From assembly GCF_022760755.1 (NCBI RefSeq), contig NZ_JAIVFP010000001.1:1902001-1966000 (forward strand): a stretch of 64,000 nucleotides of DNA, given 5' to 3'. This stretch comes from Candidatus Rhodoblastus alkanivorans. GTDB lineage: Bacteria > Pseudomonadota > Alphaproteobacteria > Rhizobiales > Beijerinckiaceae. The position numbers and the translations under genes were made by a program. The notes below the pieces were generated by a model. The model did no database searches and was not told the origin of the DNA. It saw only the letters and a program-made list of their open reading frames with translations. Below are positions 54,947 through 60,786 of this stretch, in pieces (position 1 is the stretch's first letter; every line of letters starts with the position of its first letter).

Positions 54947-56257
54947 ATGATCCATTTCACCCGGTTTTTTGCGCGATTCGGCGCCGCCGCCGCCGAAGGA
55001 TCGGGCGCCGCGCCTTTCGGCGCCTATGAGCGCATGCTGGCCCTGCGCTACATGCGCTCGCGCCGCAATCGCTGGCTGCCGTCGGCCATAGCCGGGCTTT
55101 CCGTCACCGGAATCACCGTCGGCGTGATGTCCCTGATCGTCGTCATGTCGGTGATGAACGGCATGCGCGACGAGATGATTTCCAAGCTGATCGGCGTCAA
55201 CGGCCATATTTTCATCCAGCCGATCGACACGCCGCTCACCGATTACCGCGAGGTGACGGCCCAGCTCAGGAAAATCCCCGGAATCACCTTCGCCTTTCCC
55301 ATGGTGGAGAATGCGGCCGGCATTTCCTCGCCCCAGCAGCAGACCGGGGCGCTGGTCCGCGGCGTGACCGAGGCCGACCTCAAGCGCCTGCCGGGCATTG
55401 TCGGCAATGTCCGGCAGGGGACGCTCGACCATTTCGACGACAAAGTGGGCGTGGTGATCGGCGAAAAACTGGCGGAGACGCTCGGCGTTCAGGTCGGCGA
55501 CAAAGTTTCGATCCTCACCGCGAAAGGGGCGCAGACGCCGTTCGGCGTCACGCCGCGCCTCAAGGCCTATCCGGTCAAGGCGATCTACCAGTCCGGCCTC
55601 TATGACTTCGACCAGCTGATCGTCTTCATGCCGCTCGCCGAGGCCCAGGCCTTTTTCAACCGCCCCGACGAGGCCAATATCATCGAGGGCTTCGTCGCCC
55701 ATCCCGATAAGGTCGATGCGGTGCGCGAGCGGATCGTCCAGGCCATCACCCGTCCGATCATGCTGACGGACTGGCGGCAGCGCTACAAGAGCTTCTTCGA
55801 CGTGCTCAAGGTCGAGAGCGATTCGATCTTCCTCATTCTCGCGATCATCGTCGCGGTGGCCTCGCTGCTGATCGTCCAGGGGCTGATTCTTCTGGTCAAG
55901 GACAAGGGCCGCGACATCGCCATCCTGCGGACCATGGGGGCGACGCGCGGCTCGATCCTGCGCGTCTTCATCCTTACCGGCCTCTCCATCGGCGCCACGG
56001 GCGCGATTCTCGGCACGGCTTTGGGCGTGCCGCTGGCGCTGCAGCTCGAAAACATCCGCACTTTCGTGAACCGGACCTTCAACCTCAACCTGTTCCCGGC
56101 CGACATCTACCATCTGTCGCAACTGCCGTCGTCGCTCGATCTTCACGAGGTCGGTGGGATCGCCGTGCTGACCCTGTGCCTGTCCTTCCTCGCCACGCTC
56201 TATCCGTCGTGGCGCGCCGCCCGGCTCGATCCGGTCGAGGCCCTGCGCCATGAATGA
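54947..56257 (+). CDS. lolC: lipoprotein-releasing system permease LolC/LolE
   Basis: With LolD this inner-membrane permease extracts mature lipoproteins for transfer to LolA. The 436-residue protein has the four-helix FtsX/MacB topology. There is one helix near residue 48-70 ([18 protein letters not shown]), a large periplasmic domain, then three helices near 300-325, 345-370 and 400-425. The C-terminal [21 protein letters not shown] is diagnostic. Only one permease gene is present, as usual in alphaproteobacteria, so it probably acts as a homodimer. The end overlaps lolD by 8 bases. Confidence 0.95.
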
Positions 56258-56957
56258 CGAGGCTTCAAAAAACGCTCGGCGGCCGACGCTGAAACTGACC
56301 GGGGTCACGCGGCGCTACCGCGAGGGCGACGGCTTTCTCGAAATTCTCCGCGGGGCCGACGCCGTGCTGTGGCCGCACCAGGCGGCGGCGTTGGTTGCGC
56401 CTTCGGGCGCCGGCAAATCGACCCTGCTCCATATCGCGGGGCTATTGGAGCGGCCGGACGGCGGCGAGGTCGAGATCGAGGGCCAGCCGACCTCGGGCCT
56501 GAACGATTCGCAGCGCACGGCCCTGCGGCGAAACCGAATCGGCTTCGTCTATCAGTTTCACCATCTCCTGCCGGAGTTCACCGCGACGGAAAATGTCATG
56601 ACGCCGCAGATGATCGCCGGCCTGCCGCGCCAGGAGGCGCGGCGCCGGGCGCTGGAGTTGCTCGATTATCTCGGCCTGGCGGCGCGCGCCAATCATAGGC
56701 CGTCGGAAATGTCCGGCGGCGAGCAGCAGCGCGTGGCCATCGCCCGTGCGGTCGCCAATGCGCCGGGCTTGCTGCTGGCCGACGAGCCGACCGGCAATCT
56801 CGACCCCGAAACGGCCGACCGAGTTTTCTCGGCGCTGATGTCGCTGGTGCGCGCCACTGGCCTTGCGGCGCTGATCGCGACTCACAACGTCGACCTTGCC
56901 GCGCGCATGGACAGGCGCCTGACCTTGCGCAACGGACTGCTGGCGGAAATGCCGTGA
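56250..56957 (+). CDS. lolD: lipoprotein-releasing system ATP-binding protein LolD
   Basis: LolD is the ATPase of the Lol lipoprotein release complex. The 235-residue protein has Walker A ([18 protein letters not shown], near residue 50), Q-loop in [14 protein letters not shown], the signature [14 protein letters not shown] near 152, Walker B with catalytic Glu ([12 protein letters not shown]) and the switch His in ATHNVDLA. All motifs are canonical. Its start overlaps the lolC end. Confidence 0.96.
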
Positions 56958-57079: not shown

Positions 57080-57088
57080 TTATCCACA
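57080..57088 (+). promoter_or_regulatory. DnaA box 1 (TTATCCACA)
   Basis: Exact match to the high-affinity DnaA box consensus. Confidence 0.75.
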
Positions 57089-57102
57089 AGGCGCTTCCCA
57101 GC

Positions 57103-57111
57103 TTATCCACA
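57103..57111 (+). promoter_or_regulatory. DnaA box 2 (TTATCCACA)
   Basis: Exact match in the same orientation, 23 bases after box 1 (about two helical turns). Confidence 0.75.
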
Positions 57112-57230
57112 GGATGCTGCTTCGTAATCTCTTGTTTTTACGTGATATGTCATGAAGGCAACAAATCTTGAACAGTTCGTCGTCATCGGAATAAATATAG
57201 AATATCAAGCGAACATTACGAAAACAGACG

Positions 57231-57239
57231 TTATCCACA
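57231..57239 (+). promoter_or_regulatory. DnaA box 3 (TTATCCACA)
   Basis: Exact match in the same orientation at the far side of the AT-rich stretch, 89 bases before the dnaE start. Confidence 0.75.
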
Positions 57240-57327
57240 TGTTTTTGTCGAAAGATTATATTGGGGCGGGACCTTTGCGGTTCACGGCCGCATTATCGTA
57301 ATCCAATTCAGGCGTGGGAGGCGGGCA

Positions 57328-60300
57328 ATGGTCGAGCGGATGATCGAGAAAGTCGGCTTCGTTCATCTCCATGTTCATACCGCTTTTTCCTTGCGCGAAG
57401 GCGCGATCGGCGTGAGCAAATTGCTGAAGCTCGCGCTCGCCGACGTCCAGCCCGCGGTCGCGGTGACGGACGTCAACAATCTGTTCGGCGCCCTGGAGAT
57501 TTCCGAAAAATTCGCGAAGGAGGGCGTGCAGCCCATCGTCGGATGCCAGCTCACGTTGGATTTTGGCGACGTGGAAAATTTTCGCACGCGCGGCGAGAGT
57601 CTGGCGCTGGACGCCGGCAAGGGCAATATCGTGCTGTTGGCGCAAAGCGAGCAGGGCTACGCCAATCTCATGCGGCTGGTCTCGCAGGCCTGGCTCATGG
57701 TCGATCCCGGCGATTCGCCCCATGTCGGAATCGCACAGCTTGCGGCGGCGAGCGAAGGTCTGATCGCGCTGAGCGGTGGTCCGACCGGACCGCTCGACCG
57801 CGCTTTCGCGCTCGACAAGCCCGAGGTCGCGCAGGCGCGGCTCGCCGCTTTGGCGCCCTTGTTCGCCGATCGATTCTATATCGAAATCCAGCGCCACGGG
57901 CTCGAAAGCGAGCAGAAGGTCGAACCCTTCCTGCTCGACATGGCCTATCGCGAAGGCCTGCCGCTGGTTGCGACCAATGAGCCCTATTTCGCCGTCGCCG
58001 CCGATTATGACGCCCATGACGCGCTCATGTGCATCGCCGACGGCGCCGTCGTCGGCCAGGACAACCGGCGCAAGCTCACGCCCGAGCATCGCTTCAAAAC
58101 CCGCGCGGAAATGGTCGCTTTGTTCGCGGACCTGCCCGAGGCGACGCGGAACAGCGTCGAAATCGCGCTGCGTTGCGCCTATCGGCCGCGCACCCGCAAG
58201 CCGATCCTGCCTAATTTCAACGAAGGCGTCGACGAGGCGGCGGAATTGCGCGCTCAGGCCGCATCCGGCCTCGCCGACCGGATCAGCGCCCATGGCCCGG
58301 CGCCCGGCCACACCGAGGAGGATTATCGGAAAAGGCTCGAATTCGAGCTTTCGATCATCGAGAAGATGAAGTTCCCCGGCTATTTCCTGATCGTGTCGGA
58401 CTTCATCAAATGGGCGAAGGCGCAAGGGATTCCGGTCGGGCCGGGGCGCGGCTCGGGCGCGGGCTCGCTGGTCGCCTATGCCCTGACCATCACCGATCTC
58501 GATCCGATCCGCTTTTCGCTGCTGTTCGAGCGCTTCCTCAATCCCGAGCGCGTTTCGATGCCGGATTTCGACATCGATTTCTGCCAGACCCGCCGCGACG
58601 AGGTCATCGCCTATGTCCGCCGCCGCTATGGCGAGGATCGGGTGGCGCAGATCATCACCTTCGGTTCGTTCCTGGCGCGCGGCGTGTTGCGCAATGTAGG
58701 GCGGGTGCTGGAAATGCCGCTTGGCCTCGTGGACAAGCTCGCCAAGCTTGTGCCGCAGAACCCGGCCGCGCCGGTCTCGCTCAAACAGGCGATCGATTCC
58801 GAGCCCCGCCTGCAGGAAGCCGCGCAGCAGGATTCGCGAGTGCGGCAGCTGTTGGAGGTCGCGCAGAAGCTCGAAGGGCTTTACTCCAACGCCTCGACCC
58901 ATGCCGCGGGCATTGTCATCGGCGATCGGCCGCTGGATCAACTCACGCCGCTCTATCGCGATCCCAAATCCGACATGCCGGCGACCCAGTTCAACATGAA
59001 ATGGGTCGAACAGGCCGGATTGGTGAAATTCGACTTTCTGGGCCTCAAGACGCTCACGACGCTTTCAACCTGCGTCGCGTTGCTGAAACAGCGTGGGATC
59101 GAGGTCGATCTGTCGAAAATCCCGCTCGACGACCAGAAAACCTTCGACATGCTCGGGCGCGGCGAGACGGTCGGCGTGTTCCAGGTGGAAAGCGCGGGCA
59201 TGCGCAAGGCGCTGGCCGAAATGCGCGCCGACCGTTTCGAGGACATTATCGCGCTGGTCGCGCTCTACCGTCCCGGGCCGATGGCCAATATCCCGACCTA
59301 TTGCGCCGTGAAACATGGCGAGGAGGACGCCGATTACCTCCATCCCAAAATCGAGTCCGTGCTGAAGGAGACATTCGGCGTCATCATCTATCAGGAACAG
59401 GTGATGCAGATCGCCCAGATCCTGTCGGGCTATTCGCTCGGCGAGGCGGACATGCTGCGCCGCGCGATGGGCAAGAAAATCAAGGCGGAAATGGACAAGC
59501 AGCGCGCCCGTTTCGTGGACGGCGCGGTGGAGCGTGGGATTGAAAAAGCCAAGGCCGATGAAATCTTCGACCTGCTGGCGAAATTCGCCGATTACGGCTT
59601 CAACAAGAGCCATGCCGCAGCCTATGCCCTGGTCGCCTATCAGACCGCGTGGTGCAAGGCCAATCATCCGGTCGAATTCCTCGCCGCCTCGATGACGCTC
59701 GACAAGAGCAACACCGACAAGCTGGCGGAATTCCGCAACGAGGCGACGCGTCTCGGCATCAAGGTCGAGCCGCCTTCGGTCAACCGCTCCGGCGTGGATT
59801 TTGACGTTCATCGCGACGCCTCGGGCGTCCTCACGATCCGCTATGCCTTGTCGGCGGTGAAGGGTGTGGGCGAGGGGCAGGCGGAGGCTTTGGTGCGGGC
59901 GCGCGGCGCAAGATCGTTCCGCGACCTGTCCGACCTCTCGGCCCGGCTCAATCCGCGCGAGGTCAACAAGAAGGTGCTGGAGGCGCTCGCCGCCGCCGGG
60001 GCCTTCGACGAGCTGGAGCGCGACCGCGCCAAGGCTTTTGCCGCGGTCGAGCCGATTCTCGCCCTTGCCAATCGCGCGCAGGAGGAAAGCCTTGTCGGCC
60101 AGTCGGCGCTGTTCGGCGCCGCCGAGCCGGAGGCCCTGCGCCTGACCAATTACGAGAACTGGTCGGCGGAAGAGCGTCTGCGCCGCGAATTCGAGGCGAT
60201 CGGCTTCTTCATTTCCGGCCATCCGCTCGACGCCTATCAGAACGTGACGAAAAGGCTGCGGGTCGATAATTGGGCCCATTTCGCGAGGGCGGTGAAGCAG

Positions 60301-60786
60301 GGCGCCTCGGCGGGGCGACTCGCCGCCACCGTGCTCGACCGCGCCGAGCGCCGCACCAAATCTGGGTCCAAGATGGGGATCGTGACCCTGTCCGACCCTT
60401 CCGGGCAATATGAAGCGATTATGTTTCAGGAAGGACTGAACCAATATCGCGACCTGCTGGAGAAGGGCGCCTGCGTGCTGGTCACGCTTCAGGCCAATCT
60501 CGATGGCGAAGACGTGCGCGCCCGCATCACCATGGCCGAGAAACTGGACGAGGCGGCGGCGCGCATCCAGAAGGGCCTGCGCATTATTCTGCGCAATCCG
60601 GCGCCCTTGCCGCGCCTTTCGGAGCGGCTGAAGGGCCGGCCGGAAGGCGAGGTGACGCTGGTGCTGCGGCTCGACGCCCCCGAGCGCGAGGTCGAAATCA
60701 GGCTGCCCGGCCGCTATCCCGTCAATCCGCAAGCCTCCAGCGCGATCAAGGCGATTCCGGGCGTGGCGGAAGTGGAGCTGGTTTAG
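57328..60786 (+). CDS. dnaE: DNA polymerase III subunit alpha
   Basis: DnaE is the replicative polymerase subunit. The 1152-residue protein has the N-terminal PHP domain (FVHLHVHTAFSLREG near residue 11). The palm active site has PDFDIDFCQTRRDEV near 412 and the third Asp in KFDFLGLKTL near 570. The finger segment NKSHAAAYALVAYQTAW lies near 760, a helix-hairpin-helix region and the OB domain near 990-1070 (GIVTLSDPSGQYEAIMF) follow, and it ends with a tau-binding-like tail. Length matches the family. ATG 57328 follows GGGAGG; ATG 57340 is an alternative. Confidence 0.97.
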   Translation: MVERMIEKVGFVHLHVHTAFSLREGAIGVSKLLKLALADVQPAVAVTDVNNLFGALEISEKFAKEGVQPIVGCQLTLDFGDVENFRTRGESLALDAGKGNIVLLAQSEQGYANLMRLVSQAWLMVDPGDSPHVGIAQLAAASEGLIALSGGPTGPLDRAFALDKPEVAQARLAALAPLFADRFYIEIQRHGLESEQKVEPFLLDMAYREGLPLVATNEPYFAVAADYDAHDALMCIADGAVVGQDNRRKLTPEHRFKTRAEMVALFADLPEATRNSVEIALRCAYRPRTRKPILPNFNEGVDEAAELRAQAASGLADRISAHGPAPGHTEEDYRKRLEFELSIIEKMKFPGYFLIVSDFIKWAKAQGIPVGPGRGSGAGSLVAYALTITDLDPIRFSLLFERFLNPERVSMPDFDIDFCQTRRDEVIAYVRRRYGEDRVAQIITFGSFLARGVLRNVGRVLEMPLGLVDKLAKLVPQNPAAPVSLKQAIDSEPRLQEAAQQDSRVRQLLEVAQKLEGLYSNASTHAAGIVIGDRPLDQLTPLYRDPKSDMPATQFNMKWVEQAGLVKFDFLGLKTLTTLSTCVALLKQRGIEVDLSKIPLDDQKTFDMLGRGETVGVFQVESAGMRKALAEMRADRFEDIIALVALYRPGPMANIPTYCAVKHGEEDADYLHPKIESVLKETFGVIIYQEQVMQIAQILSGYSLGEADMLRRAMGKKIKAEMDKQRARFVDGAVERGIEKAKADEIFDLLAKFADYGFNKSHAAAYALVAYQTAWCKANHPVEFLAASMTLDKSNTDKLAEFRNEATRLGIKVEPPSVNRSGVDFDVHRDASGVLTIRYALSAVKGVGEGQAEALVRARGARSFRDLSDLSARLNPREVNKKVLEALAAAGAFDELERDRAKAFAAVEPILALANRAQEESLVGQSALFGAAEPEALRLTNYENWSAEERLRREFEAIGFFISGHPLDAYQNVTKRLRVDNWAHFARAVKQGASAGRLAATVLDRAERRTKSGSKMGIVTLSDPSGQYEAIMFQEGLNQYRDLLEKGACVLVTLQANLDGEDVRARITMAEKLDEAAARIQKGLRIILRNPAPLPRLSERLKGRPEGEVTLVLRLDAPEREVEIRLPGRYPVNPQASSAIKAIPGVAEVELV

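Follow-up and report, generated by a model that had tools for sequence, protein, structure and literature searches.

The 64-kb stretch of Candidatus Rhodoblastus alkanivorans DNA analyzed here (64,000 nucleotides, C1:1902001-1966000, hereafter the window) raises the question of what a cluster of three perfect DnaA boxes is doing in the spacer upstream of dnaE, the gene of the replicative polymerase. A preliminary description of this DNA had offered three readings, namely an origin core, a DnaA-controlled dnaE promoter and a DnaA titration site. The spacer and its surroundings contain the following features:

56250-56957, plus strand: lolD-like ABC ATPase gene, upstream of the boxes (best model TIGR02211, 241.5 bits, short of the 307.75 cut-off)
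57080-57088, plus strand: predicted DnaA box I (TTATCCACA), from the pattern scan; also perfect in G102
57103-57111, plus strand: predicted DnaA box II (TTATCCACA), the better-conserved member of the pair, perfect in 7 of 9 genus genomes
57143-57262, no strand: AT-rich stretch of 33.3% GC, from base composition; probably the promoter region
57189-57214, plus strand: LexA-like 26-base element GAAT-N7-GAAT-N7-GAAC, between boxes II and III
57231-57239, plus strand: predicted DnaA box III (TTATCCACA), perfect in the Candidatus Rhodoblastus alkanivorans genome
57234-57262, plus strand: weak sigma-70-like candidate (TCCACA-17-TATATT), overlapping box III
57328-60786, plus strand: dnaE, encoding the 1152-aa alpha subunit of the replicative DNA polymerase III (NF004226, 1440.7 bits, cut-off 1002)

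A pattern scan of the window returned exactly three copies of TTATCCACA, all on the plus strand, compared to a mean of 0.06 in 100 shuffles of the window, none of which (0/100) reached three. The counts and spacing first reported for this locus, three 9-mers within 160 bases in one orientation with two of them 23 bases apart, are exact, and the remark that the 9-mer had not been seen elsewhere in the window holds over the whole 64 kb. When one mismatch to TTATCCACA is allowed, just two extra sites appear in 64 kb, and the resulting total of five is within chance, as 23 of the 100 shuffles get there.

The 120 bases starting at 57143 have a GC content of 33.3% versus 64.1% for the window, and no other 120-base segment of the window, sampled every 10 bases, is this low. 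This stretch had been described as 35% GC and adjacent to the boxes; it is indeed AT-rich, but its place is between boxes II and III, with box III included, and not next to all three. The boxes do lie upstream of dnaE, which starts at 57328, downstream of box III. The dnaE product scores 610 bits against the error-prone polymerase model, under the cut-off of 939, and its closest named relative is that of Rhodoblastus acidophilus DSM 142 (81% identity), in a comparison that may omit entries very close to the window. A strong sigma-70 promoter was rejected: the single weak candidate compares with 0.5 in shuffles and, taken alone, provides no evidence. CcrM sites (GANTC) are found upstream of dnaE in three of the nine genus genomes, at differing places.

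Three perfect boxes together with an AT-rich stretch are just what is looked for in the box cluster of an oriC, and the locus might on these grounds be read as the chromosomal origin or a second origin. The cumulative skew has its minimum at about 422 kb (412-452 kb computed), not at dnaE, which starts at position 1,959,328 of the chromosome. The skew changes sign at ~422-424 kb on the 4.13-Mb contig, adjoining hemE (424095-425108), and the C-terminal domain of DnaA is encoded at 450729. Ten parS-like places were found with two mismatches at most; the sole perfect one (359497) is close to a one-mismatch one (355888), while the other eight (one or two mismatches) are scattered, the nearest to dnaE being at 2,043,697, 84 kb off. 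The skew sign change, the hemE and dnaA genes and the pair of neighboring parS-like sites thus all fall at 0.36-0.45 Mb, whereas dnaE, at 1.96 Mb, is within the right arm and separated from hemE by 1.53 Mb.

The skew sample covers 864 kb round the chromosome, made of 40 stretches plus the window. The right arm was positive in 18 of 21 stretches and the left arm negative in 16 of 20, with a second switch at ~2.5 Mb. Pooled values were +0.022 and -0.016 for the right and left arms, respectively, and the strand ratio of GGGNAGGG, which we take to resemble FtsK orienting sequences, was 59:10 and 10:36, the arm limits for both measures having been chosen after the sampled skew values were known. 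Around dnaE there is no switch (+0.021 at 1.75 Mb, -0.003 at 1.85 Mb, +0.020 in the window and +0.031 at 2.06 Mb).

On the skew and the positions of hemE, dnaA and parS, we rejected the origin core proposed earlier: the cluster is refuted as the main origin, and we regard an origin of any kind at dnaE, a second one included, as very improbable. One observation speaks the other way, since scanning the hemE locus at the skew change revealed no DnaA box within one mismatch, and the interval 424.7-426.0 kb (L018:12700-14000) contains only three two-mismatch 9-mers. The origin is therefore placed by skew and gene context only, and its own boxes at the hemE-linked locus may be divergent. The hemE-type oriC of Caulobacter likewise combines DnaA boxes with AT-rich DNA; the dnaE cluster differs from it in chromosomal place, the skew change and hemE being elsewhere. 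A DnaA-box cluster next to AT-rich DNA is thus insufficient for calling an origin, and a box-based origin finder would go wrong by 1.5 Mb in this genome.

The whole genome (4,345,403 bases in 5 contigs) carries 8 perfect TTATCCACA sites, a total that looks like chance because the same pattern read backwards also occurs 8 times (4+4). Their distribution is uneven, with three of the eight within 160 bases upstream of dnaE and no other two together. The other five are in the spacer between rplI-like and dnaB genes, in the spacer between uvrA-like and ssb genes, inside a Rep-like gene and inside two other genes (uvrA, rplI, Rep, and the copA, copZ, tex and ParA mentioned below, are names given by eye). 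Across the 11 genus genomes there are 2 to 9 perfect sites per genome, below the 8 to 29 of the backwards control, and the box is therefore not enriched genome-wide. Outside dnaE, the genus has 40 perfect sites (5 in the window's genome and 35 in the others), of which 4 are at dnaB and 2 at ssb.

We then compared the dnaE spacer between genomes of the window's genus, which is that of the purple bacterium R. acidophilus, and beyond. Nine of the 11 genus genomes have a strong match to this dnaE, and the R. acidophilus entries G100 and L056 were treated as one organism, counted once. G033 and G103, judged 98% and 93% complete, display weak dnaE matches only, probably owing to an assembly gap, and were left out of the dnaE box count. 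A box with at most one mismatch is present within 330 bases upstream of dnaE in all nine genomes, and is perfect in eight; without the window's own genome, the count is 8/8. On the coding strand, two boxes stand in tandem, with starts 23 bases apart in G000, G102, G104, G101 and G105, and 21 bases apart in G071, G099, G100 and G106. The exceptions to a perfect box II are TTTTCCACA in G102 and TTGTCCACA in G099. In genus genomes other than G102, the position of box I is occupied by the weaker member of the pair (TTGTCCACA, TCATCCACA or the TCCACA core alone, the latter in G100 and G106), and box III is found elsewhere in the genus in one-mismatch forms only (TTGTCCACA in G102, TTATCCACC in G101 and G104). 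The spacer around the boxes has otherwise diverged, with a mean column identity of 49% (six genomes, the G102 slice lacking boxes I and II).

Deep conservation of the dnaE boxes was rejected, as they are mostly absent beyond the genus. Among named relatives besides R. acidophilus, a perfect box within 600 bases upstream of dnaE is present in 1 of 78, a Methylobacterium (from 80 loci, L095, with no upstream DNA, being left out; five had less than 330 bases upstream). For the family, we took the best 30 loci per search, 28 of them outside the genus, from 99, 60 and 60 genomes for dnaE, dnaB and ssb, respectively, with gene starts extrapolated from where the protein match begins and hence inexact. 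Among these 28 best family genomes, a perfect dnaE box within 450 bases was found in one, on the opposite strand, and a box with at most one mismatch in five; two cut-off loci (L147 and L161) probably have a wrong anchor, so that 26 of the 28 are safe. A lack of conservation in close relatives, which according to the preliminary description would weaken a regulatory reading, thus applies only beyond the genus.

The genes dnaB and ssb were picked from the perfect sites of the window's genome, so that the test for them rests on the other genomes. Within 330 bases upstream, a box with at most one mismatch is present at dnaB in 10 of 11 genus genomes (4 perfect) and at ssb in 11 of 11 (2 perfect), and without the window's own genome these counts are 9/10 and 10/10, respectively. 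At dnaE, dnaB and ssb alike, the place and orientation of the box are largely kept across the genus. The conserved dnaB box is found 142-165 bases ahead of the gene, on the opposite strand; a second TCCACA directly abuts it in several genomes, an additional TAATCCACA is found at -44 in G033 and G101, and in G099 dnaB lacks a box within one mismatch. At ssb, the box is 77-83 bases ahead of the gene in 10 of 11 genomes, the exception being G105 with its box at -297. Among the 28 best family genomes for each gene, a box with at most one mismatch was found at dnaB in 5, none perfect, and at ssb in 14, one perfect. SSB passes the TIGR00621 model (155 bits, cut-off 54), whereas DnaB scores 320 bits versus a curated cut-off of 540, because the query was only a 254-residue fragment.

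Could boxes that are no more frequent than chance genome-wide, in genomes of a single genus, merely reflect chance and shared ancestry? The genus genomes are related, so the counts of blocks and genomes are not independent, and the perfect-box totals per genome are chance-like. Against this, equal-length control blocks around the same genes, i.e. the same loci and genomes, contain the box in 1 of 246 cases, compared to 30 of 31 promoter blocks, and the neighboring spacer has diverged. When all 9-mers were ranked over the 31 promoter blocks, TTATCCACA came first (14 exact, 30 with one mismatch) and was the only 9-mer present in at least eight genomes of each of the three sets (dnaE, dnaB and ssb); the best unrelated 9-mer, which is GC-rich, reached 24 of 31 blocks by the one-mismatch count and fails to reach eight genomes per set. 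We consider that chance with common descent has a negligible likelihood of accounting for the boxes.

A second alternative concerns the protein rather than the sites, which could be the operator of some non-DnaA protein reading TCCACA. The sites are known from sequence only, and many of the conserved copies carry one mismatch (TTGTCCACA, TTTTCCACA, TCATCCACA), as such an operator would allow. The top-ranking 9-mer is nevertheless exactly the consensus DnaA box, TTATCCACA, and all three genes are replication genes, which makes another reader improbable. The genome encodes one DnaA, with an intact C-terminal DNA-binding domain (PF08299, 113.2 bits) containing the stretch GGRDHTTVLHA, presumably the part that reads the DnaA box.

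These data point to the dnaE spacer as a promoter controlled by DnaA and belonging to a small replisome regulon of this protein, similar to the one in Caulobacter, a reading to which we assign a probability of roughly 0.76. A DnaA-controlled dnaE promoter was among the initial proposals, and it gains support from the box in 9/9 genus genomes and its recurrence upstream of dnaB and ssb. As conserved boxes precede these two genes also, three fork proteins would make up the small DnaA regulon. In the mechanism that we propose, DnaA would bind the tandem boxes I and II, about two helical turns apart, and in the window's species and its nearest relatives it may also bind the third box, closer to dnaE. 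Such binding would couple dnaE transcription to how much DnaA is present or to its activity state, with the same control probably acting at dnaB and ssb. From what is observed, i.e. the sites, their clustering, their positions and their conservation in the genus, we infer that DnaA most likely binds these regions and tunes fork-gene transcription to DnaA, the binding, its effect on transcription, its sign and its timing all being part of that inference. As to the sign, our guess, at somewhat better than even odds, is activation, by analogy with hdaA, gcrA, ftsZ and mipZ of Caulobacter. The locus would then offer a concrete case of an initiator controlling the supply of polymerase, helicase and SSB together.

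The titration site proposed at the outset would be a sink or reset site for DnaA of the datA/DARS type that merely happens to sit upstream of dnaE. The tandem of strong boxes far from the origin, holding 3 of the genome's 8 perfect sites, fits such a site. Two or three boxes are few for this role, however, and the boxes in front of dnaB and ssb suggest a role in transcription; titration alone leaves this placement upstream of replisome genes unexplained. We therefore judge titration as the sole role to be unlikely, noting that both roles can coexist. The E. coli datA/DARS loci are similar in being DnaA-box clusters away from oriC, and the dnaE boxes differ from them by their promoter location and their recurrence at dnaB and ssb.

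The promoter contains, between boxes II and III, a further candidate regulatory element. In alphaproteobacteria, the LexA (SOS) operator is GAAC-N7-GAAC, with two half-sites 11 bases apart. The triple GAAT-N7-GAAT-N7-GAAC upstream of dnaE is the only one of that form in the 864 kb sampled, whereas the plain GAAC-N7-GAAC occurs 17 times in the same 864 kb, so that the pair alone is not rare. The outer half-sites (GRAY-N18-GAAC) are present in 9/9 genus dnaE promoters, and the middle GAAY in 5/9 (G000, G102, G104, G101 and G105), being degenerate in G071, G099, G100 and G106. At ssb, a GAAC-N7-GAAC is found further upstream of the box in 8 of 11 genus genomes. The element resembles the alphaproteobacterial LexA operator described above, making an SOS input on the main polymerase possible. 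More broadly, and with considerable doubt, the consensus boxes of this genus might mark the fork promoters (dnaE, dnaB, ssb) and not the origin, with DnaA setting replisome supply along with initiation and with DNA damage feeding in through the LexA-like elements that precede dnaE and ssb. If true, the initiator and the SOS repressor would meet on the replicative polymerase gene itself.

Control of replication genes by DnaA has precedents. In Caulobacter, DnaA boxes are predicted for dnaB and dnaQ, which are described as members of the DnaA regulon (PMC8203912, citing Hottes et al. 2005), DnaA directly activates hdaA, gcrA, ftsZ and mipZ (PMC3193534), and components of the replisome are listed among the targets of DnaA in a study reporting 77 cell-cycle promoters with DnaA motifs (PMC4287350). 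The Caulobacter crescentus regulon resembles the present one in belonging to an alphaproteobacterium, in having boxes upstream of fork genes and in including dnaB. It differs in that dnaB and dnaQ are the genes named, the main texts of PMC8203912 and PMC4287350 containing neither 'dnaE' nor 'ssb'; either gene may be among the 77 promoters of the supplementary list of PMC4287350. In Borrelia burgdorferi, gel shifts show in vitro binding of DnaA to the region upstream of dnaE (PMC9879097), which establishes there a DnaA-dnaE link that is suggested here by predicted sites. That organism belongs to a distant phylum, and the passages of PMC9879097 on its dnaE spacer mention one potential box and no conserved tandem pair. 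The Caulobacter and Borrelia precedents mean that the kind of system is already known. Our literature search found no paper combining Rhodoblastus and DnaA and, in titles and abstracts, nothing on alphaproteobacterial dnaE being under DnaA control; dnaE, dnaB and ssb, shared across the genus and with the densest box cluster at dnaE, may be new as a gene set.

Off the fork genes, a few perfect sites also recur within the genus, at copA/copZ-like (3), tex-like (2) and Rep/ParA-like (2) loci, and no recurrence was seen, judging by eye, among the remaining sites of the 40 outside dnaE. A perfect TTATCCACA lies between copper-ATPase-like and copZ-like genes in three genus genomes (L190, L194 and L216, at 1501) and upstream of a tex-like gene in two similar ones (L198 and L205, at 1501). 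Two genus genomes carry a Rep-like/ParA-like gene pair (L001:679-2420 and L204:679-2426), with a perfect box inside each Rep-like gene.
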